DNA from: a virus
IMG/VR virus record: IMGVR_UViG_3300047300_000288
Span: 1-30,439 of that record
Length of the DNA stretch: 30,439 nucleotides
Direction: 5' to 3' (one strand)
The position numbers were made by a program, and so were the translations under genes. Position 1 is the first letter of the stretch, and every line of letters begins with the position of its first letter. Below are positions 1 to 30,439 of the stretch, one piece after another. The notes under the pieces were generated by a model. That model was not told where the DNA came from. It saw nothing but the letters and a program-made list of their open reading frames with translations, and did no database searches.

Positions 1-20
1 CTTAATTCATTTGCTTTCAT
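1..20 (-). CDS. 5' end of an unidentified small gene, cut by the contig end
   Basis: An ATG at 20 (read leftward) starts MKANEL before the sequence ends. It follows the stop codon of the 88-residue gene by 9 bases, across the same spacer that joins other small early genes. Only six residues are visible, so no function can be given. At the right end of the window the same upstream gene is followed by a different small gene (start 30312). This fragment is therefore either a strain variant or a second locus. Confidence 0.4.
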
Positions 21-38
21 TATTCTGATTTAAAGGTT
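20..38 (-). repeat. 19-bp intergenic spacer element, copy C
   Basis: Read on the minus strand it is AACCTTTAAATCAGAATAA. It contains the last two sense codons (Asn-Leu) and the stop of one gene and ends at or next to the ATG of the next. Identical copies lie at 30237-30255 and 30314-30332; a 17/19 copy lies at 298-316. Confidence 0.85.
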
Positions 39-145
39 AATATCTATACCCCAAATAAAATCTCCACCTATTTGATCTGATTCAGCCTGCCTCCATTCAA
101 GTTCACGTTCTATTTCAAAAGACCATTTACCATCAATATTTTCAA
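20..145. repeat. 126-bp perfect direct repeat, left copy
   Basis: Identical to 30314-30439. It covers the last ~38 codons of the ExoX-C-like gene plus its downstream spacer. The match stops exactly at the spacer: bases 1-19 differ from 30295-30313. This fits a circular or terminally redundant genome whose assembly ended in a region with two alternative continuations. A true gene duplication is also possible. Confidence 0.9.
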
Positions 146-5101: not shown

Positions 5102-5133
5102 ACCTATATTGTATTACGGGTTAGTAATAATTA
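5102..5133 (-). promoter_or_regulatory. Late promoter element P5101
   Basis: Read 5'-3' before the ATG at 5101: TAATTATT at -32 to -25, 12 bases, then TACAATATAGGT ending at -1. The last 12 bases are identical to those at 11230, 18530 and 21352. It lies between a terminator and the first gene of the portal operon, which supports promoter function. The hexamer-to-ATG distance predicts an mRNA starting at the A of AUG. Confidence 0.65.
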
Positions 5134-6699: not shown

Positions 6700-7686
6700 T
6701 TATTTGGTTTTTGAAAATTGTACAAATGCTTTGAACTTCTCATGAGCAGACATTGCTACTGGTGCAGCCTCCTCTTCAATAGTTTCTGCTGAAAGACTTT
6801 CTTCCAGTTGGTTTTTTAAGTCAGCTATCATAGCCACTAATTGATTAACCTGCTCTTCAATCACAGGGTTAACAATAGCAAGTACAGCCTCAGCATCCAT
6901 AGCAGGATCAACTGCCATTTCAACATCCTCTGCAGCTGCTGCTGTCTCTTCCTCTGTGACTGCTTCCTCAGCATTATCAACAGTTGCTTGAGCTTCTTCC
7001 TCAACGGCAGGATCTGCTGCCATTTCTGCCTCCATTTCGGTAGGCTTGTCCTTGATTTCAATAACTTCCCCGTCTTTTACCACGTAGATTTTATCCTCAA
7101 TCAAGTGTTCTCCATCAGGTAACTTCATTGTGTTAGTATTTAGATTTAATAATTCCGAAAGTTTCATACCAAGGAAGCCCTGAATAGAGTACCCTACTTG
7201 ACCAGACTCAACTAACTTATCATAGTACTCTCTATCTGTTACTTGACTTGTTAGCATCAGAGTTCCTTTAGGTACTTCAATGCCATAAGTTGTGAATGCC
7301 TTATCAGTTTTTGGGCTGTCAACTATCCATGCCTCAAGGATGTACGCTGGTACCTTCTCCTCTGCATCATGCTCAAGGTTAAAGATATCCTTGTTGCGTA
7401 GGTTAAGCATGAACTTGTTGTGTATAGCTTCAATAGTTTTAGCTGTGAACTCAACATCATACTCAGAGCCATCCTCATCTCTTCTATAGATTTGCATAGG
7501 TATCATGGCAGGTGCTACAATTCTCATCTTGACATCATCACTGAATGTCATAGGAGCTACAGAAGTGAATGCCATACCTTTAACTTTTACTGCTGGTTTG
7601 TTGGTGAAGGCTATCATTTCAATCCCTAAGTCCTCACCATCGGAGTACTCAGGATCTATTGTAATTTTGTAACATGGTCTATCCAT
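6700..7686 (-). CDS. Prohead protease fused to a scaffold-like domain (XkdF type)
   Basis: 328 residues. Residues 100-172 carry the XkdF-like serine protease core: NLEHD (H106), YILEAWIVDSPKTDK, GTLMLTSQVTDREYYDKL and GYSIQGF (S167). Residues ~215-310 are very acidic and Ala/Glu-rich, a coiled-coil stretch expected to act as scaffold that the protease removes during maturation. It begins at a variant late element (TCAATATAGGGT-ATG). Its start is divergent from the plus-strand island. Confidence 0.8.
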   Translation of the reverse strand: MDRPCYKITIDPEYSDGEDLGIEMIAFTNKPAVKVKGMAFTSVAPMTFSDDVKMRIVAPAMIPMQIYRRDEDGSEYDVEFTAKTIEAIHNKFMLNLRNKDIFNLEHDAEEKVPAYILEAWIVDSPKTDKAFTTYGIEVPKGTLMLTSQVTDREYYDKLVESGQVGYSIQGFLGMKLSELLNLNTNTMKLPDGEHLIEDKIYVVKDGEVIEIKDKPTEMEAEMAADPAVEEEAQATVDNAEEAVTEEETAAAAEDVEMAVDPAMDAEAVLAIVNPVIEEQVNQLVAMIADLKNQLEESLSAETIEEEAAPVAMSAHEKFKAFVQFSKTK

Positions 7687-8078
7687 ACCCTATATTGAAG
7701 AATGTTGTATATTTGTTAAAAATTAAAATCTATTATATTCGACATGTAGAAAAAGCCTTGTTGAAATACAAGGAACAAACATTCCCCAACTGGGAAGAAC
7801 CATTTATCGAGTTAACAAATATCGAAGATGTGAAAGGTGTAGCCCCAAAAGTTATATTTACAATTCAGTCAGACCCAATTAAAGAGGTTGGAGTTAATGG
7901 TGTTCAAGCATTAGATATGCTTATATACACTAAATGTTTGTTTGAAAGTTTGAATGAAGCCTTTCCTTGCAGAGAAAATTCTTTGACAATCACAAAAATT
8001 GAAGAGGCAATCCATTGGCAAGAGGCAAGAACAAAAGATAGATCAAGAAGAGGAGTTGAAGGTTATAACAAAAAATAA
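7674..8078 (+). CDS. Acb2/Tad1-hairpin-like protein (candidate cyclic-nucleotide sponge)
   Basis: Up to 134 residues. The end PCRENSLTITKIEEAIHWQEARTKDRSRRGVEG (residues ~98-130) and the preceding TIQSDPIKEVGVNGVQALDML match the pattern of the helical hairpin domain in phage Acb2 (anti-CBASS) and Tad1 (anti-Thoeris). Those proteins sequester host defence signal nucleotides. Family match is from memory; the function is inference. The start is uncertain: ATG 7674 overlaps the divergent protease start by 13 bases. In-frame TTG (7713, 7758) and GTG (7830) are alternatives. It is the first gene of the only plus-strand group. Confidence 0.6.
   Translation: MVYPYPILKNVVYLLKIKIYYIRHVEKALLKYKEQTFPNWEEPFIELTNIEDVKGVAPKVIFTIQSDPIKEVGVNGVQALDMLIYTKCLFESLNEAFPCRENSLTITKIEEAIHWQEARTKDRSRRGVEGYNKK
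7687..7718 (-). promoter_or_regulatory. Late promoter element P7686 (variant)
   Basis: TAACAAAT at -32 to -25 and TTCAATATAGGGT before the ATG at 7686. The AATATAGG core is shifted one base by an additional G compared with the four perfect copies. It drives the protease-capsid-tail tube unit. It overlaps the plus-strand promoter candidate. Confidence 0.5.
7708..7715 (+). promoter_or_regulatory. Candidate host-type -7 box for the plus-strand island
   Basis: TATATTTG on the plus strand matches TAnnTTTG. No clear TTG lies at the expected -33 distance, so this is weak. If used, transcription starts near 7720 and the ATG at 7674 could not be the true start of the first gene. Confidence 0.35.
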
Positions 8079-8089
8079 AAAATAATTCT

Positions 8090-8638
8090 ATGGTAACAAT
8101 TTTAGGTAAACAAGTACCCAACCAACTAACTGAGTTAACGGTACAGCAGTTTGAGGATATCACATCCATCCATGCAAGGCAGGACCTTGATGCTATTGAG
8201 AAACATCTTGAAGTGTTCGCACTGTTAGGTGTGCCAGAGGCTGACTTTGAGGATGTATCTATTGAGGAGTTCAAGGAGTATGTCAAGCAATTCAACAACC
8301 TTAGTGGTAAGCCAGAGATGCAACAATCCATTGAGCTTGATGGATACCCTTGCAAGGCTTATGAAGGTGATGCATTTAGGCTATCTGTGAAGGATACTAA
8401 GCACATTGAGAAGGTTATGACATCAAGACATAAGGGATATATCTCTGAGATGTTGGCTATACTGTTCAAACGTGAGGACCTTACCAAGGCAGAGCACTAC
8501 TCAGATGCTCACATCAAGCATAAGGCAAAGATGATACGTGAACTCAAAGCTGAGTTAGCAGTGCCATACTTAGTTGAGATAGGTCAGAAGTTAGCTAAGC
8601 AAATGCCTAAGGATGAACCTGCCGAAGTCGTGGAGTGA
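8090..8638 (+). CDS. Tail assembly chaperone-like protein 1
   Basis: 182 residues, acidic and helical. The segment VPNQLTELTVQQFEDITSI and LLGVPEADFEDVSIEEFKEYV aligns with the start of the next gene's product (both have P..(s/t)E(l/i).V.QF..I and P..D(f/l)ED(v/l).IEE). This architecture, next to the tail module, is typical of Bacteroidota tail-assembly chaperones that act on the tape measure. It overlaps the next gene by 26 bases in the +1 frame, which suggests translational coupling. A clear slippery site was not seen. Confidence 0.55.
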   Translation: MVTILGKQVPNQLTELTVQQFEDITSIHARQDLDAIEKHLEVFALLGVPEADFEDVSIEEFKEYVKQFNNLSGKPEMQQSIELDGYPCKAYEGDAFRLSVKDTKHIEKVMTSRHKGYISEMLAILFKREDLTKAEHYSDAHIKHKAKMIRELKAELAVPYLVEIGQKLAKQMPKDEPAEVVE

Positions 8639-9347
8639 GATAGATGTACTGCAGTTCAAAGAGATTAGAGAACTGTACAGCATTGAGGAAGTATTTACCA
8701 GAGAGATTGAGATACTTGCAGCACTGGCTGACATACCATCTGATGACTTAGAGGACCTTGACATTGAAGAGGTCAGTGCTATGCTTAAAGATATCACCTT
8801 CATTAACTCTGAGCCTTCTAAGTTCTATAAGCACACCCTTGACCATTGGAAGGTTAAGCCTCTATCTAAGCTCACAGTGGGTGAGTTCATTGACCTTGAG
8901 TACTTCTTTGCTAATGACTACACTAAGCACATCTCACATATAGCAGCTATACTATACAGGAAGCACACTATCAATGAATGGGATGACATGGTGATTGAGC
9001 CTTATAAGTACTCACCCTTTGACCGGGCTGAGCTGTTCGATGACTATTGCATCAATGACATCTATGGCTTAGTACCTGAGTACTTAGCATTCAGAGCTAA
9101 CTTCATGGAGAAGTATGAGCTACTATTCCAAGCAGATGAGAGTGATCCCGATGAGGAGGAAGAGAAACCAAAGACTTCACAGGATGTAAAGGCTGAACGT
9201 GAAGAGAAGAGTGCCATCAAGTGGAGCTGGGAGAGGTTGCTGTACAGTTTATGCCAGGAGGACCTAACTAAGTTTGACCAAGTCACTGACATGCCACTTG
9301 TATTGACCTTTAATATGTTGGCTATGAAGAAAGAGCTTAACCTATAG
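8613..9347 (+). CDS. Tail assembly chaperone-like protein 2
   Basis: 244 residues. LPKSWSEIDVLQFKEIRELY is the typical beginning of this family, followed by LTVGEFIDLEYFFAND, HISHIAAILYRK, an acidic linker (SDPDEEEEKPK) and a C-terminal helical part SWERLLYSLCQEDLTKFDQVTDMPL. It is a longer paralogue of the upstream protein. It has its own start and a full N-terminal domain, so it is probably translated independently rather than by frameshift fusion. The TAG stop lies in a CTATAG palindrome shared with the convergent minus-strand gene. Confidence 0.6.
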   Translation: MNLPKSWSEIDVLQFKEIRELYSIEEVFTREIEILAALADIPSDDLEDLDIEEVSAMLKDITFINSEPSKFYKHTLDHWKVKPLSKLTVGEFIDLEYFFANDYTKHISHIAAILYRKHTINEWDDMVIEPYKYSPFDRAELFDDYCINDIYGLVPEYLAFRANFMEKYELLFQADESDPDEEEEKPKTSQDVKAEREEKSAIKWSWERLLYSLCQEDLTKFDQVTDMPLVLTFNMLAMKKELNL

Positions 9348-11230: not shown

Positions 11231-11262
11231 ACCTATATTGTATTGAACTTAATCTCCTGTTA
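11231..11262 (-). promoter_or_regulatory. Late promoter element P11230
   Basis: TAACAGGA at -32 to -25, 12-base spacer, TACAATATAGGT directly before the ATG at 11230. Both boxes are identical in sequence and spacing to those at 18530, while the spacer between them differs. It overlaps the 3' end of the gene at 11249. Confidence 0.7.
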
Positions 11263-18530: not shown

Positions 18531-18562
18531 ACCTATATTGTACTAAGGTCAGCATCCTGTTA
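18531..18562 (-). promoter_or_regulatory. Late promoter element P18530
   Basis: TAACAGGA (-32 to -25), N12, TACAATATAGGT, ATG. The TAA of the upstream box is the stop codon of terL, so the promoter is compressed into the 30-base gap between the genes. Confidence 0.7.
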
Positions 18563-19729
18563 GAAGGATAGATATGAGTCATCTGTGTAGTACTCTTCCT
18601 TGATGTAGGTAGCTGCATATCGGATGGCATCCATGGCATCATCCCACAGCTTGACGGGCTCATCTGTGATGGTGTCACCTATCTTTTTCCATTTGTAGTT
18701 TTCATACTCCTTCTTAAGTTGTGGATGGTCCTCACAGAACACACCAAAGGTCTTGATGTTATCTATACCTTTCTTCACTACCTTGTTAGCGTTCTCAATG
18801 TAATACCCTGCCCTGTCTATCTCTGCAATGGTCTCAGGTCGTGAATAGTCAGCCAGTATGTTGATGTGCTTCTCTATTCCTAACTGGTCCATCCTTGTGA
18901 TGAGGTCAGTGGTAGTCAAGTAGCTCTCATAGATCACTGGCTCAATGTACAGATCCTTATCCCTCCAATAGACTCTGACTAAGGCAGTAGGGTGATTGTA
19001 ACCGAAGTCAAGTCCATACACATACTCAGTGAACTTAGCAGGTCTATGCTTGACAAAGGTCCATGTGGAGTAGATGTTGCTCTTAGAGATAGCCTTCTCA
19101 CCAAGGGCATATATCTGATACTGTGCCTCATCGGTTCGCTTGAGGTCTTCAATCTGTTTCTTGATACTCTCAGGCAGGAACGGGTTATCCTTGTACGTTG
19201 ACTTGATGAGCACTGACTCCTCCTCTGGTAATTCATAGAGCCATGAGTTGCTCTCACTTGGGTTGTAGTCAAAGATTAGCTTCCCCTCTGTTCTCATGTT
19301 CAGCTGAGTGAAGTCATCATAGTACAGCTCATTGGCTTCATTGCACCATGCTATATCTCTCTTCCTACCTCTAATCTTTTGCTCATCATCTACTGAGAAG
19401 AACTCCACTATTGAGCCATTGTCAAAGGTATAGATGTGTTCAGACTTATTGTGCTTGTTGACATCATATATCTCTAAGGTCTTCATTATCTCAAGGAAGT
19501 CTCTCATCACTGTAGCCCTCAATGCTGGGAAGGTCTTGCGGATGATACTCACTACCTTGCCTCTGTTCTGTAGGCAGTAGACTATGATGAGCTGACATAG
19601 TGAGTAGGTCTTAGATGACCTTGAACCACCCTCATTGATGATGAACCTTGACTCACCATTGAGTGCCTCATAGTTCTTCTCGAATATTACTGTGCTACGT
19701 ATCTCCATAGTGTGCAATAGTTGAACCAT
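18560..19729 (-). CDS. terL: Terminase large subunit
   Basis: 389 residues. Packaging ATPase-nuclease. Walker A at residues 34-41 (GGSRSSKT), Walker B around 125-131 (DIAWCNEANE with the catalytic Glu), and the C-terminal RNase H-like nuclease with D241 (GLDFGYNHP), D294 (ILADYSRPET) and D364/D367 (WDDAMDAIRYA). All key residues are present. The length is short but normal for Terminase_3/6 types. An ATG seven codons downstream is an alternative start. It follows terS after a 42-base gap. Confidence 0.95.
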   Translation of the reverse strand: MVQLLHTMEIRSTVIFEKNYEALNGESRFIINEGGSRSSKTYSLCQLIIVYCLQNRGKVVSIIRKTFPALRATVMRDFLEIMKTLEIYDVNKHNKSEHIYTFDNGSIVEFFSVDDEQKIRGRKRDIAWCNEANELYYDDFTQLNMRTEGKLIFDYNPSESNSWLYELPEEESVLIKSTYKDNPFLPESIKKQIEDLKRTDEAQYQIYALGEKAISKSNIYSTWTFVKHRPAKFTEYVYGLDFGYNHPTALVRVYWRDKDLYIEPVIYESYLTTTDLITRMDQLGIEKHINILADYSRPETIAEIDRAGYYIENANKVVKKGIDNIKTFGVFCEDHPQLKKEYENYKWKKIGDTITDEPVKLWDDAMDAIRYAATYIKEEYYTDDSYLSF

Positions 19730-19771
19730 ACCACTTATTAGTAGTATAGTAGTAAATATGTCTAAGATACA

Positions 19772-20206
19772 CTATTTAATAATAGTTACCTTAATATCAT
19801 TAACAGCCTGACCTTGAGTAGTGGTATCTACCCTCTCAGTGAGGTTGTTAAGTCGCTGGGTTATGGAGGGGTTATACTGCCCAACCATGCCACCTGTTAT
19901 CTGGTCATTCTTAATTGACCTTCTAATACGTGAACAGATACGGACATATGCGGAATATCTCCCATCCTTATTTTCAAAATAATCACTTAAATCTGGACAG
20001 TCAGTATCGAACTTAGTCTCAGGGTGATCACATACAAATTCATAGAAACCTATCTCAGTTAATGGAGCTTCATGAGGCACAGGAACTAAGTTACCAATCT
20101 TATCAAGTTGATAGATAAGTCTTGGATTGTCTTTGACATGTTTCTTATATTGCTCCCAGAGGTCAAGCATCATCTCAGGAGTCTCTATGTACTTATGCTT
20201 TGCCAT
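19772..20206 (-). CDS. terS: Terminase small subunit (DNA-recognition)
   Basis: 144 residues from the ATG at 20206 (MAKHKYIETPEMMLDLWEQYKKHVKDNP), which overlaps the previous gene by 14 bases. An earlier start at 20257 would overlap by 65. Seen: LTEIGFYEFVCDHPETKFDTDCPDLSDYF, helical part SAYVRICSRIRRSIKNDQITGGMVGQYNPSITQRL. This is the pattern of Bacteroidota terS ('DNA-packaging protein' with an end domain of gp3 type). It precedes terL. Confidence 0.75.
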   Translation of the reverse strand: MAKHKYIETPEMMLDLWEQYKKHVKDNPRLIYQLDKIGNLVPVPHEAPLTEIGFYEFVCDHPETKFDTDCPDLSDYFENKDGRYSAYVRICSRIRRSIKNDQITGGMVGQYNPSITQRLNNLTERVDTTTQGQAVNDIKVTIIK

Positions 20207-20963
20207 CTTTAATCTGTTTAAGTTTACGTTGTGCCCATTCAATGCCTTCATCACCACCCCATGCTAACCACATCAATCTACCACATCCATCACCAAGTTC
20301 ACGCTGTGAATTTTGTCTATGCCGTTCAAATCCTGCCATTCTGGATATGGTCTCTTCTGTGAGAGCTTCACCCTTTGCTAGTTGGTTAGCTCTTGCCTTT
20401 CCTACAGCAGTACCACAGCTTCCCCATCCATGCTCTTCTGCCCATCTGAGTGCTATCTTAGCATTCTCAGTAGCAGCTTGAGGGTAGTCTGAGTATGACT
20501 CAGCTAACTTGACTCCTATAGGACCAAGGTCAGCAATGACATCTGCGTTGTTATCATAATGTTTAGCTATCTTGAGCTCTTTAATTTTCTCCACTTTTGC
20601 CTTGTTGCTACCTGTAGCATAGACCCTGGATAGTGGTATCCCTAACTCCTTAGCTCTGTTGATCATTGGTTCAATGTTCCTTCGAGCTGAAATGATGTAA
20701 ACATCTGCACCTTTGGCTATCCATTGCTTAGCTAACTCCATGCCATGTGGTTTAGTTAGGGTCTCATCATAGTCAAATGAGATACGTTGAGCAGCGAAGG
20801 CTCTCCTGTACTTAGCCATTGCAGACATCTTAGACTCCTGCCACTTAGACTCACACACAGCATACCTCTGCTCCTCATTTGGATAGGTATCTGTTGACTC
20901 TTGGTCTGACATACACCTGGTGATGTAGTCATTGTGGGTCTCTTTTGGGTTAGGACTTGGCAT
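20193..20963 (-). CDS. Three-part HAD-phosphatase-like phage protein
   Basis: 256 residues from ATG 20963. (1) Residues 1-45: PSPNPKETHNDYITRCMSD...YPNEEQRYAVCESKW, a Cys-containing module that I also know from the N-termini of phage head proteins. (2) ~60-150: HAD core with FDYDETLT (D64, D66), IISAR (S92), K121/K123 and HYDNNADV (D137). (3) ~200-256: LTEETISRMAGFERHRQNSQ...GCGRLMWLAWGGDEGIEWAQRKL. The HAD catalytic residues appear intact; the substrate is unknown. Lying between the sigma factor and terS, it may serve packaging or DNA end processing. Confidence 0.6.
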   Translation of the reverse strand: MPSPNPKETHNDYITRCMSDQESTDTYPNEEQRYAVCESKWQESKMSAMAKYRRAFAAQRISFDYDETLTKPHGMELAKQWIAKGADVYIISARRNIEPMINRAKELGIPLSRVYATGSNKAKVEKIKELKIAKHYDNNADVIADLGPIGVKLAESYSDYPQAATENAKIALRWAEEHGWGSCGTAVGKARANQLAKGEALTEETISRMAGFERHRQNSQRELGDGCGRLMWLAWGGDEGIEWAQRKLKQIKDGKA

Positions 20964-21204
20964 CTGCTGCTGGTTTCTTTTTACGTTTCTTTTTAGGTGC
21001 TGGTATAGGACCCTCAACAGCCTTATACTCTATGACAGTCACTTCTGGCACTTCCTCAAAGATGTGCTTAAGTCCTATTGACTGGTAGTACTTCACCTTA
21101 GTCATGTCTATCTTATCCACTACTATTGTGCGAGTTCCTAAGATGCGGTCATACACCTTGACAGTAGTACCTAAGTACTCTGGTTTGATTTTAAAATTGC
21201 TCAT
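20950..21204 (-). CDS. Hypothetical small protein with lysine-rich tail
   Basis: 84 residues. A β-rich start (MSNFKIKPEYLGTTVKVYDRILGTRTIVVDKIDMTKVKYYQSIGLKHIFEEV) and a basic disordered C-terminus (PKKKRKKKPAAD). The first part resembles small head/neck proteins from Bacteroidota phages. The tail could bind DNA. Overlaps neighbours on both sides by exactly 14 bases. Confidence 0.6.
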   Translation of the reverse strand: MSNFKIKPEYLGTTVKVYDRILGTRTIVVDKIDMTKVKYYQSIGLKHIFEEVPEVTVIEYKAVEGPIPAPKKKRKKKPAADAKS

Positions 21205-21352
21205 ATTGGTTTATTATTATGAATATTAAATAAAATGCCAGTGTTGCACCAGCGAATTTGAAGAGCATGTATATGTTCTCATTGAATAATGCCAGTACTA
21301 CACCCCATGCCAGGATGTAAGTCAGTAGCCCTATGATATCAACACTCTTCAT
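21191..21352 (-). CDS. 53-residue membrane protein, first gene of the packaging unit
   Basis: MKSVDIIGLLTYILAWGVVL... with two hydrophobic segments (about residues 6-23 and 29-47). It starts at the late element and overlaps the sigma factor gene by 14 bases and the next gene by 14. The regular overlaps and the promoter element support it as a genuine gene. No known family; a membrane role in late infection is possible. Confidence 0.6.
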   Translation of the reverse strand: MKSVDIIGLLTYILAWGVVLALFNENIYMLFKFAGATLAFYLIFIIINQYEQF

Positions 21353-21881
21353 ACCTATATTGTATTGACTTTATATTTTCTTTAATTTCTTTAATCAGGA
21401 AGTAAGCAGAGGTAGTGTTAATATTGAAGTACTTAGCCAGTGCAGTCTGAGTAGAGTGCCCTTTATCATAGTATGCCTCAAAGATTATCCTCTTGATGCG
21501 GTCATGTTGTTGGTTTCTATATATCTCAATGATAGCCTTCTTAAAGTTGTGCCGTTCCTCTATCTCAATCTTATGGTCAAGGTCAGTGGTATCATCTAAG
21601 CTATCACCTATGTACTCCTGTGACCTGTATATGTCATCTCTCTTGGTCCTTGAGCCTTGAGTCCAGATTAACTCATACTTGATGGTGTTAAGTAGGTAGC
21701 TCTTAGCCTTATCTTGAGTCATCTCTGGTAGGTGTACCTTGGTGCAGTGTATGTATGCGTTGTTGATCACTGCATCTGCATCTATTGAGCTGGGTATATT
21801 GAGCACCTTTAAGAAGTGCTTAGTGTATCTGAGCACCTCATCATAGTTGCGGTTGATATATCTATCCAGTTGCTCCTTCAT
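21339..21881 (-). CDS. ECF-like phage sigma factor
   Basis: 180 residues from ATG 21881 (MKEQLDRYINRNYDEVLRYTKHFLK). Region 2-like: IDADAVINNAYIHCTK and the following AKSYLLNTIKYELIWTQGSRTKRD (residues ~33-80). Region 4-like HTH: RIKRIIFEAYYDKGHSTQTALAKYFNINTTSAYFLIKEIKENIK (~126-170). Length and spacing suit ECF sigma factors, which lack regions 1 and 3. The match is from the pattern and is not database-verified. Its 3' end contains a late promoter element, and the elements found upstream of the structural genes are its likely targets. Confidence 0.7.
   Translation of the reverse strand: MKEQLDRYINRNYDEVLRYTKHFLKVLNIPSSIDADAVINNAYIHCTKVHLPEMTQDKAKSYLLNTIKYELIWTQGSRTKRDDIYRSQEYIGDSLDDTTDLDHKIEIEERHNFKKAIIEIYRNQQHDRIKRIIFEAYYDKGHSTQTALAKYFNINTTSAYFLIKEIKENIKSIQYRYEEC
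21353..21384 (-). promoter_or_regulatory. Late promoter element P21352 inside the sigma factor gene
   Basis: TAAAGAAA (-32 to -25), N12, TACAATATAGGT, then the ATG at 21352. The element lies within the last 15 codons of the sigma factor gene, where it encodes the residues IQYRYE. It would let packaging genes be transcribed separately from the sigma gene. Confidence 0.65.
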
Positions 21882-22068
21882 ACCAGATGTTGAAGTCTTT
21901 GAGCCATACCTTCCTACGTACAGATGCACAGAAGCACTCCTTATCTTTGATGCCAGTGACTCTGCTCTTAATACGCTGTAGTTGTATCAGGCTGCTCTTG
22001 GTGAGTAGTCTATCCTCTGGTTGGTTGAGTATTGACTCTATGAGTTGTATATCAGTTTGTTCAAGCAT
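21862..22068 (-). CDS. Small conserved phage protein next to the sigma factor
   Basis: 68 residues from the ATG at 22068 (MLEQTDIQLIESILNQPEDRL...). The signature ECFCASVRRKVWLKDFNIWYE is a pattern I recall from small Bacteroidota phage proteins of unknown function. It has two cysteines but no zinc motif. An earlier start (22152) would overlap the preceding gene much more. It overlaps the sigma factor by 20 bases, so translation of the two is probably linked; it could be a sigma partner or antagonist, but this is a guess. Confidence 0.55.
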   Translation of the reverse strand: MLEQTDIQLIESILNQPEDRLLTKSSLIQLQRIKSRVTGIKDKECFCASVRRKVWLKDFNIWYEGATG

Positions 22069-22268
22069 ACGGCAGTGAGTGATGTGGCACATGCCACTAT
22101 GAATGATTGAGAGTATATCAGAGTGAACCAGAAGGAGCAGCACTTCCAGCAACCTAAGGCAGTGTGTAGCCAGTCAGGGAGTATGAGCCTGTCATCTATG
22201 TAGTTCTGTATGGGCTCGAAGTGGGTGAACCACCATGAGACCACTAATGGTGCTATGTAGTTTATCAT
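22038..22268 (-). CDS. Small membrane protein with CWKC motif
   Basis: 76 residues. MINYIAPLVVSWWFTHFEPIQNYIDDRLILPDWLHTALGCWKCCSFWFTL... has a CxxCC pair (GCWKCC) next to a membrane segment and a second one (IVACATSLTAVCLNKLIY). Small membrane proteins with this form (LxCxKCxxFW.TL) are common in Bacteroidota phages, function unknown. It is the first gene of the sigma factor unit, after the terminator and promoter candidate at 22273-22323. Confidence 0.55.
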   Translation of the reverse strand: MINYIAPLVVSWWFTHFEPIQNYIDDRLILPDWLHTALGCWKCCSFWFTLIYSQSFIVACATSLTAVCLNKLIYNS

Positions 22269-22272
22269 GGCA

Positions 22273-22303
22273 CTAAGATAATGAATGTTGTTGACATAAC
22301 AAA
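22273..22303 (-). promoter_or_regulatory. Candidate host promoter for the sigma factor unit
   Basis: TTTG (22300-22303), 19 bases, TATCTTAG (22273-22280; TAnnTTTG with one mismatch). It overlaps the U-tract of the preceding terminator. The box is only four bases from the ATG at 22268, so this mRNA too would be nearly leaderless, or a later start is used. Confidence 0.35.
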
Positions 22304-22323
22304 GGGGAGCTGTTAACTCCCCT
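22296..22323 (-). terminator. Terminator of the replication operon
   Basis: Minus-strand RNA: perfect 7-bp stem AGGGGAG/CUCCCCU with a 7-base loop followed by a U-rich, interrupted tract UUGUU. Moderate strength; it closes the long operon from the primase to the HTH gene. Confidence 0.6.
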
Positions 22324-22433
22324 GCAGTCAGTGAGGGACATCCATGTCCCTCTGTGTGATACCCCCTTGCTGTGCATTATTCATATTTCCCAGATTTTGA
22401 AAGTGAACAAGGGGGTAGGTTGCCGAACCTCAG
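22324..22433 (-). ncRNA. Structured noncoding segment, possible small RNA
   Basis: 110 bases without an ORF. A 9-bp perfect inverted repeat (22333-22341 / 22344-22352, GAGGGACAT/ATGTCCCTC) adjoins a 10-bp perfect inverted repeat TACCCCCTTG (22360-22369) / CAAGGGGGTA (22408-22417), which encloses a 38-base AT-rich loop. With the terminator at 22296-22323 this gives three consecutive hairpins. It follows the HTH gene, as would a processed 3' UTR RNA or a protein-binding leader. Also compatible with a DNA site. Confidence 0.35.
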
Positions 22434-22649
22434 TTATTTCATTAAGTAATTAAAAGCCTTATCATAGAACTCACTCTGTACTGGTCTCCCATGTAGGAAG
22501 CGGTGCAGTGTGATGTTAGTCACTCCCATGTCCTCTGCCATGTGCACAGCTCTGTTCCTATTGGATATCTTATCCTTAAGTTCAGCCCTCACCCAGTCAG
22601 TGAGGGTCTGATTATCTTTGAGATATACGGTCTTAGAACGGGAGATCAT
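22434..22649 (-). CDS. Small HTH DNA-binding protein
   Basis: 71 residues. Helix-turn-helix NRAVHMAEDMGVTNITLHRFLHG (residues ~32-54) is seen, resembling XRE/Cro-like domains; the flanks are short. It is the last gene of the replication operon and overlaps the SSB gene by 17 bases. It may switch early to late expression or bind the palindromes near 1250 or 28889; this is inferred. Confidence 0.6.
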   Translation of the reverse strand: MISRSKTVYLKDNQTLTDWVRAELKDKISNRNRAVHMAEDMGVTNITLHRFLHGRPVQSEFYDKAFNYLMK

Positions 22650-29268: not shown

Positions 29269-29631
29269 TCAATAATATTCATTATCTGCAATCCTTTGCT
29301 TGATTATCTGTAAGTCAGTGGTGTTGTTAGCTCTGAGGATGTCATCAAAGATGTCTCTCTTCTCTTCCTGGACTGGCTCAAATATGTCAAGCTCCTTCTG
29401 TATGTGGAATAGGTAGATTGTATCCTTACTCTTCATGAAGTGCTCATGCACATTGATTGAGTGCAGGATGGTAGCATGTGTTCTGTGGAATATGTCAGCT
29501 ATATTTTGAAAGGACAGTCCTTCCTTTCTCAGCAGGTTAGCCAGATAGAACCTTCTGTATGCATATTCTCTGTGTCTCTTATTAGAGTCCAGCTTGTTCT
29601 CTTGTATGTAATCAACTATCTCTTGTATCAT
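29269..29631 (-). CDS. DnaA domain IV-like protein without AAA+ domain
   Basis: 120 residues. SNKRHREYAYRRFYLANLLRKEGLSFQNIADIFHRTHATILHSINVHEHFM (residues ~16-66) follows the DnaA C-terminal DNA-binding domain, including the HATILHS (52-58) stretch that matches the DnaA signature (HaTv.ha). Domains I-III are absent; an acidic C-terminus follows. It may bind the nearby repeats as an origin-binding protein or compete with host DnaA. Overlaps a 30-residue membrane ORF by 20 bases. Confidence 0.75.
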   Translation of the reverse strand: MIQEIVDYIQENKLDSNKRHREYAYRRFYLANLLRKEGLSFQNIADIFHRTHATILHSINVHEHFMKSKDTIYLFHIQKELDIFEPVQEEKRDIFDDILRANNTTDLQIIKQRIADNEYY

Positions 29632-29704
29632 TGTATCTCTGTATTACTCTTATTAAAATCATAATGAAGGCAGCAGCCCAGGTGATCATAGCTAATTCTT
29701 TCAT
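29612..29704 (-). CDS. 30-residue membrane protein
   Basis: MKELAMITWAAAFIMILIRV... one hydrophobic helix and a polar tail (QRYNDTRDS). ATGA overlap with the winged-helix gene and a 20-base overlap with the DnaA-like gene. Small and unproven. Confidence 0.45.
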   Translation of the reverse strand: MKELAMITWAAAFIMILIRVIQRYNDTRDS

Positions 29705-29889
29705 TTTCTTAATTGGTATTTATTATTATTCTTATCTACTGAGTACCCTAATGCCTTGAATAGTTCAAAGTATCTGTACACTGTTCTTTCACTTACTCCT
29801 AAGTATCTTGCAATGGTATGGATAGGTCTGTACTTATCCTGCAGGAGCTCCATGAGTCGGATGCATCTGTACATCTTATGCTGGTTCAT
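29701..29889 (-). CDS. Winged-helix (HTH_11-like) regulator
   Basis: 62 residues: MNQHKMYRCIRLMELLQDKYRPIHTIARYLGVSERTVYRYFELFKALGYSVDKNNNKYQLRK. The HTH (TIARYLGVSERTVYRYFELFKALG, residues ~25-48) and a wing (VDKNNNKYQL) give the full fold; no effector domain. An early transcription regulator or DNA-binding helper of the DnaA-like protein. Confidence 0.7.
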   Translation of the reverse strand: MNQHKMYRCIRLMELLQDKYRPIHTIARYLGVSERTVYRYFELFKALGYSVDKNNNKYQLRK

Positions 29890-30313: not shown

Positions 30314-30332
30314 TTATTCTGATTTAAAGGTT
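30314..30332 (-). repeat. 19-bp intergenic spacer element, copy A
   Basis: Perfect copy joining the partial ExoX-C-like gene (stop 30324) to the 21-residue ORF starting at 30312. It forms the inner edge of the 126-bp repeat. Confidence 0.85.
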
Positions 30333-30439
30333 AATATCTATACCCCAAATAAAATCTCCACCTATTTGATCTGATTCAGCCTGCCTCCATTCAAGTTCAC
30401 GTTCTATTTCAAAAGACCATTTACCATCAATATTTTCAA
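30324..30439 (-). CDS. Partial ExoX-C-like gene at the right end
   Basis: The last ~38 codons and the stop, identical to the 3' part of the gene at 30-296. It is cut by the end of the sequence. If the genome is circular it is the same gene. Confidence 0.7.
   Translation of the reverse strand, partial: ENIDGKWSFEIERELEWRQAESDQIGGDFIWGIDINL

Follow-up and report, generated by a model that had tools for sequence, protein, structure and literature searches.

A putative divergent ECF-like sigma factor proposed to read a dedicated promoter element at five late operons of a probable Bacteroidota phage

The gp55 protein of phage T4 is a small phage-encoded sigma factor for late genes, to which the protein studied here bears a likeness. 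In T4, the sliding clamp gp45 activates transcription of the late genes (PMC2988020). For phiEco32, SU10 and 7-11, it is already known that a phage ECF sigma factor drives late genes. These proteins, exemplified by phiEco32 gp36, guide the polymerase of the host to a short motif of their own in front of middle and late genes, while earlier phiEco32 genes are served by host promoters (PMC4281155, PMC4331800). One small phiEco32 protein also has a double role, as an inhibitor of the sigma-70 polymerase and as an activator at some promoters of the phage sigma (PMC4281155). Annotated two-domain ECF-type sigma genes are also found in the crAss-like phages cr6_1, cr50_1, cr53_1, cr114_1 and cr115_1; Crassvirales infect Bacteroidetes (PMC10136315). 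Activators of the RinA/Ltr/ArpU type are likewise encoded just upstream of the packaging operon and control a promoter there, although they are shorter and act at host-sigma promoters.

Here we analyze a window of viral DNA, by which we mean the whole stretch of 30,439 bases, and consider it likely that it encodes a divergent two-domain ECF-like sigma factor of a Bacteroidota phage, which redirects the host RNA polymerase to late promoters. The scheme is that of phiEco32, a 77-kb coliphage, whereas the details differ. The phiEco32 motif is tAATGTATA (PMC4331800), compared with TAAY-N16-TACAATATAGG in the window, where there are five late sites, one of them within the sigma gene and each abutting a start codon. 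A blastp comparison between phiEco32 gp36 and the window protein gave E=4 over 41 residues and hence no detectable similarity. The crAss-like phages differ in their genomes of about 100 kb and in their sigma factors, which BLAST clearly links to RpoE (29-32% identity), unlike the family described here. With RinA/Ltr/ArpU proteins there is a weak C-terminal similarity.

The 180-codon reading frame runs from 21881 to 21339 and encodes a protein of 21.7 kDa. The sequence-only reading of this interval had proposed such a product; the frame is present, and its orientation needed correcting to the minus strand, the plus strand being closed over 21339-21881. The same reading had placed the gene next to the packaging genes, which is the case: the terminase operon follows, and its promoter element overlaps the 3' end of the sigma gene (Table 1). 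The late genes run leftward on the minus strand, with the terminase followed by putative tail, capsid, portal and endolysin genes, these four being named from the translations of their reading frames. Between the minus-strand late modules, three genes lie on the plus strand (7662-9347). They are probably not late, as a host-type -7 box, TAATTTTG, occurs 4 nt before the ATG at 7674. An identical 126-nt direct repeat is present near both ends of the window (20-145 and 30314-30439), which suggests a complete genome that is circularly permuted or terminally redundant.

Table 1. Coordinates of the sigma operon, the late promoters and neighboring genes in the window
Feature	Position	Strand	Description
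Host-type promoter of sigma operon	22273..22303	minus	TTTG-N19-TATCTTAG, 4 nt before ATG 22268
76-aa hydrophobic protein	22038..22268	minus	Heads the sigma operon; WWF and LGCWKC motifs; conserved upstream of sigma
68-aa protein	21862..22068	minus	ECFCxxVRRKVWxKDF motif; overlaps sigma gene start; present in all nine clades
Sigma factor gene (likely)	21339..21881	minus	180 aa; AF2 models and Foldseek, TIGR02937 in relatives, reversed controls
Late promoter 1 (predicted)	21353..21384	minus	TAAA-N16-TACAATATAGGT; inside sigma gene 3' end; next ATG 21352
53-aa hydrophobic ORF	21191..21352	minus	First gene after late promoter 1; start conserved in relatives
Terminase small and large subunits	18560..20257	minus	Pfam and PHROG matches; downstream of late promoter 1
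Late promoter 2 (predicted)	18531..18562	minus	TAAC-N16-TACAATATAGGT; next ATG 18530; tail genes (500 aa, 927 aa, tape measure)
Late promoter 3 (predicted)	11231..11262	minus	TAAC-N16-TACAATATAGGT; next ATG 11230; 204-aa gene onward
Late promoter 5, variant (predicted)	7687..7718	minus	TAAC-N15-TTCAATATAGGGT-ATG; next ATG 7686; 328-aa gene, 325-aa putative major capsid protein
Late promoter 4 (predicted)	5102..5133	minus	TAAT-N16-TACAATATAGGT; next ATG 5101; 111-aa gene, putative portal and onward

Predicted structure points to a sigma factor. Two AlphaFold models built from different alignments (pLDDT 77.8 and 78.8, pTM 0.42) are of moderate confidence, with an unreliable placement of the two domains relative to each other. 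They show a region-2-like helical block (residues ~1-76), a low-confidence linker (77-98) and a region-4-like helical block (~99-178). When either model was compared with the PDB using Foldseek, nearly all rows down to E ~0.8 were sigma factors. More than 30 of them occupied the top of the ranking with alignments over the whole chain, and most alignments spanned 170-240 columns. The matches included the ECF sigma factors SigL, SigH, sigma-E, CnrH, AlgU, SigW and SigK, as well as sigma-28. Global TM-scores were low because of the uncertain interdomain placement, and the region-4 domain alone reached TM 0.61-0.64 to 3hug. In BFVD, the first-ranked match is an unannotated protein with 38% identity, which is probably itself a member of the family, and most of the named rows below it are phage sigma factors. 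The comparison with ECF sigma factors that had been suggested from the sequence thus matched both sigma regions, and the region 2- and region 4-like segments do lie in the order first described. Regions 2 and 4 in order, a size of about 20 kDa and the lack of regions 1.1 and 3 are those of an ECF-type architecture.

Sequence searches point in the same direction, with matches that are weak though specific. The gene was not recognised in Pfam, where there was no Sigma70 match, or in PHROGs, with the sole exception of phrog_351 sigma at E=0.03 in two family members. A profile search with the window protein itself returned a weak RinA match only. Among its relatives, the sigma70-ECF model TIGR02937 of NCBIfam matches 13 of the 30 members of alignment A5 (best 8e-5) and 8 of the 17 members of alignment A1 (1.3e-5, the best over both scans). 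Where the alignment is shown, the match is full-length and collinear, with residues 5-172 on profile positions 3-163. Sigma-32, Sig70_bacteroi1 and other NCBIfam sigma models gave additional weak matches in relatives, and ten reversed family sequences searched against the same models gave zero sigma matches. Members scanned one at a time score 18-21 bits with TIGR02937, less than the curated cut-off of 42.9 bits, which is an annotation threshold and not a biological trait; at such scores the sequence by itself is suggestive. No sigma factor was found by phmmer and profile searches of PDB sequences. A home-made ECF profile, thin with its 13 sigmas, returned a probability of 0.2 and did not separate the family from reversed controls (hhalign and hmmsearch). 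Since no curated sigma model is matched above its cut-off, we call the protein sigma-like by its fold and place it in no named ECF group. The earlier label 'ECF-like' therefore holds for the two-domain architecture and does not extend to a curated group.

The gene belongs to a large and strongly conserved family, with 183 relatives confirmed in one scan of viral contigs and nine clades whose identity goes down to ~32% (IMG/VR scans; alignment A5). No relative was detected when the protein was searched with tblastn against 50,697 phage records, nor in a scan of the GTDB bacterial genomes, and hence no prophage form was found. Given this absence from both collections, the lineage looks unisolated and probably lytic. 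The terminase and primase of the window are similar to those of Bacteroidota phages, among others, and the sigma-bearing phages are probably a lytic lineage of Bacteroidota. The 274-aa reading frame on the minus strand at 20193-21017 matches phrog_2859, a family of unknown function, over its last third; in clade B, mainly the two ends of this frame were found.

The late operons of the window are marked by a common element, TAAN-N16-TACAATATAGGT-ATG at four operons and a variant of it at the capsid operon. Exact copies of TACAATATAGGTATG occur at 21364, 18542, 11242 and 5113, all on the minus strand, and each ends on the ATG with which the leading gene of a late operon begins. When up to two mismatches are allowed, the window contains five matches compared to 0.14 expected, and no shuffled sequence reached five. 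A plus-strand match at 2885 with two mismatches was set aside as chance, because it lies at a minus-strand gene junction and has no start codon on its own strand. Every late operon bears the element, which is absent from the sigma operon and from the early region of the window. The upstream box is TAAC at 18562, 11262 and 7718, the three copies with AAC that had been pointed out before, TAAT at 5133 and TAAA at 21384. The count of five operons given in the sequence-only reading was also correct, as four exact copies plus the capsid variant. Two details needed correcting: at the capsid operon the spacer is 15 nt long and the element contains one additional base, and the upstream box is better written TAAY. 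The five operons share a dedicated two-box promoter, TAAY and TACAATATAGG separated by 15-16 nt, whose link to the sigma protein is predicted. In register, TAAY extends from -32 to -29 and TACAATATAGGT from -12 to -1, with TACAAT at -12 to -7.

The element is kept at all five sites in relatives. Among the distinct sequences of site 2 (37) and site 3 (12), TAAY and the distal box are retained and the spacer is largely variable. At site 4, all 29 upstream regions keep TAAY-N16-TACAATATAG, a count that is biased because the pattern itself served to retrieve many of the loci. The copy at the capsid site would be dubious on its own; it is backed by near-canonical copies in 19 relatives, which carry TAAC-N15-TACAATATAGGC/T-ATG or a one-base variant. 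We also scanned 2.9 million viral contigs with the full 35-nt pattern, and nearly all matches were starts of late operons in the sigma phage family. Among the 91 matches read, 46 precede the 500-aa or 204-aa genes, one more precedes the 500-aa gene in a truncated copy (L275), and the remainder, except two, precede the 111-aa gene. The two exceptions (L286 and L298) lie outside the family in unrelated records and were taken as chance. All nine family records longer than 25 kb among the element-scan matches listed also have the sigma gene. Eight of nine other records tested have no sigma match, and these are seven fragments shorter than 21 kb and one unrelated record of 32.6 kb.

The form of the element differs between clades with different sigma variants. 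In clade B, site 1 carries TTCAATATAGTTATG and site 2 TTAATATAGTTATG. Behind terL in clades C and D there are TTAATATWGKYATG-like boxes, even though the gene that comes next is not the same one. The element reads TACAATATAGTTATG in clade E and AAAACACGAA-N9-TAATATTATAA in clade F, and a repeated ACAATATAAATAAAAAC is found in clade I. This joint divergence matches what co-evolution of sigma factor and promoter would predict, and phylogeny alone could also produce it. The late modules are rearranged in several clade C and D loci (L163, L188, L192, L194 and others), where terL is separated from the 500-aa tail gene by relatives of the 204-aa and 201-aa genes; the late element stays immediately behind terL. 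In four further loci (L235, L236, L231 and L212), AAACACGA(A) codes for the C-terminal K-H-E of sigma. This box also occurs upstream of other late genes in clades B-F and may be their -35 box.

Late promoter 1 coincides with the DNA of codons 173-177 (I-Q-Y-R-Y), among the last of the sigma gene. Not one synonymous change occurs in these codons (ATA CAA TAT AGG TAT) across 94 distinct coding sequences of clade A, while other conserved codons have an average synonymous entropy of ~0.9 bits. Since 10 of the 107 conserved degenerate codons are invariant, the chance that all five of codons 173-177 would be among them is ~2e-6. Codons 165 and 167, around the TAAA box, also belong to the ten.

The sigma operon (22268 to 21339) encodes the 76-aa protein, the 68-aa protein and the sigma factor, and its head resembles the Bacteroidota sigma-A promoter type, with consensus TTTG / TAnnTTTG and the -7 box at -12 to -5 (PMC6847099, PMC9723704). 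Among 89 distinct relatives, 74 have a TAnnTT[TA][AG] box no more than 22 nt from the start, compared to 5% at random positions. Over the whole window, TAnnTTTG occurs 41 times against 27 expected; as these matches are mostly intragenic, only boxes a few nucleotides before starts were used. An ECF sigma factor often, though not always, has its cognate anti-sigma encoded next to it. The two small proteins upstream of the sigma factor are co-conserved; the 76-aa protein has no Pfam or PHROG match and the 68-aa protein matched no PHROG family. The 68-aa protein may be a sigma partner, either a co-activator or an anti-sigma. Two strong hairpins at 22300-22356, one of them kept in many relatives, lie just upstream of the operon and are possibly the terminator of the preceding one.

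In the switch that we propose, the host sigma-A holoenzyme would transcribe the sigma operon from TTTG-N19-TAnnTTnR, a conserved promoter whose use we infer. The phage sigma factor would bind the host core RNA polymerase, and the new holoenzyme would initiate at the five late promoters, whose sites are observed and whose recognition is predicted, leading to packaging, tail, capsid, portal and lysis genes. Expression would thus presumably pass from host sigma to phage sigma. With +1 positioned by analogy to host promoters, the start falls on the A of the ATG, and late mRNAs would probably be leaderless or nearly so; the same placement would put the start of the sigma operon at or beside the A of its own ATG. 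Leaderless mRNAs are a minority in Flavobacterium, with 5.5% in F. psychrophilum (PMC9723704), which weighs against this prediction and makes it a sharp test. The late boxes match the -33/-12 layout of host promoters, sharing the -12 register and lacking TTTG at both boxes (PMC6847099, PMC9723704), and we counted this geometry in favor of reading by a sigma factor.

The main competing explanation of the protein is a RinA/Ltr/ArpU-type activator, region-4-like, that recruits the host sigma-A holoenzyme without replacing its sigma. The published arrangement for Ltr/RinA (PMC13123087) likewise has the regulator directly upstream of the packaging genes and of the promoter it would control, and 14 of 17 members match TIGR01636 phage_rinA in their C-terminal half (E ~1e-3 to 1e-2), at 15-19 bits against a cut-off of 31.9. 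We nevertheless consider this activator unlikely. The late core promoter lacks the host -7 box, with TACAATATAGG where TAnnTTTG would stand; for the staphylococcal Ltr target P23, by contrast, a sigma-A-like box has been reported. Moreover, Ltr proteins have ~130 aa, compared with 180 aa and two domains here, and the N-terminal half of the window protein resembles sigma region 2 in fold, with weak agreement from TIGR02937.

The other alternatives concern the element. It is very improbable that TACAATATAGGTATG serves late starts as an RNA signal, be it for translation initiation or otherwise, and that the sigma-like protein has some other target. The motif does end on ATG at nearly all sites; however, the L033 subclade keeps TACAATATAGGTAT with the ATG of the next gene 15 nt further on, so that the element is not a start-codon motif. 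We therefore rejected a ribosome-binding or Kozak reading, and the shifted start favors recognition as DNA. The fixed distance of 16 nt to TAAY where the spacer sequence varies, and the single copy per transcription unit, one of them (late promoter 4) directly behind a terminator hairpin, also argue against an RNA signal. We give equally little credence to a real sigma-like protein and real late promoters with another phage factor as reader. The genome does encode further predicted DNA-binding proteins, and the HTH proteins at 22434-22649, 29269-29631 and 29701-29889 would be candidates, yet they are small and single-domain. A change of sigma yields just such a replacement of both core boxes, -10 and -35, and the sigma gene is present in all clades, physically fused to promoter 1. 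Reading of the late element by the 180-aa protein is the interpretation that we favor.

As far as searched, the novel aspects of this system are a family beyond Pfam and PHROGs, a phage of ~30 kb, a late regulon of five promoters, a promoter embedded in the sigma gene and late mRNAs predicted to be leaderless. A more ambitious picture, which we offer tentatively and hold to be rather doubtful as a whole, is that of a self-contained switch in a ~30-kb phage. It would combine an undescribed sigma family, a first promoter in the last codons of the sigma gene, five late mRNAs starting with AUG, and an overlapping 68-aa CxC protein acting as co-activator or as inhibitor of host sigma-A.

A conserved gene found in well over 100 environmental phage contigs and blank in the family libraries is now assigned a likely function, and the collection of phages that we searched contains no isolate of its lineage. 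For Bacteroidota phages, the locus provides a complete and testable late regulon, with five promoters, one proposed reader and one host-type promoter. The sigma/element pair may also become an orthogonal expression tool for Bacteroidota. Finally, the covariation of sigma factor and promoter over nine clades offers a natural series for matching sigma residues to bases.
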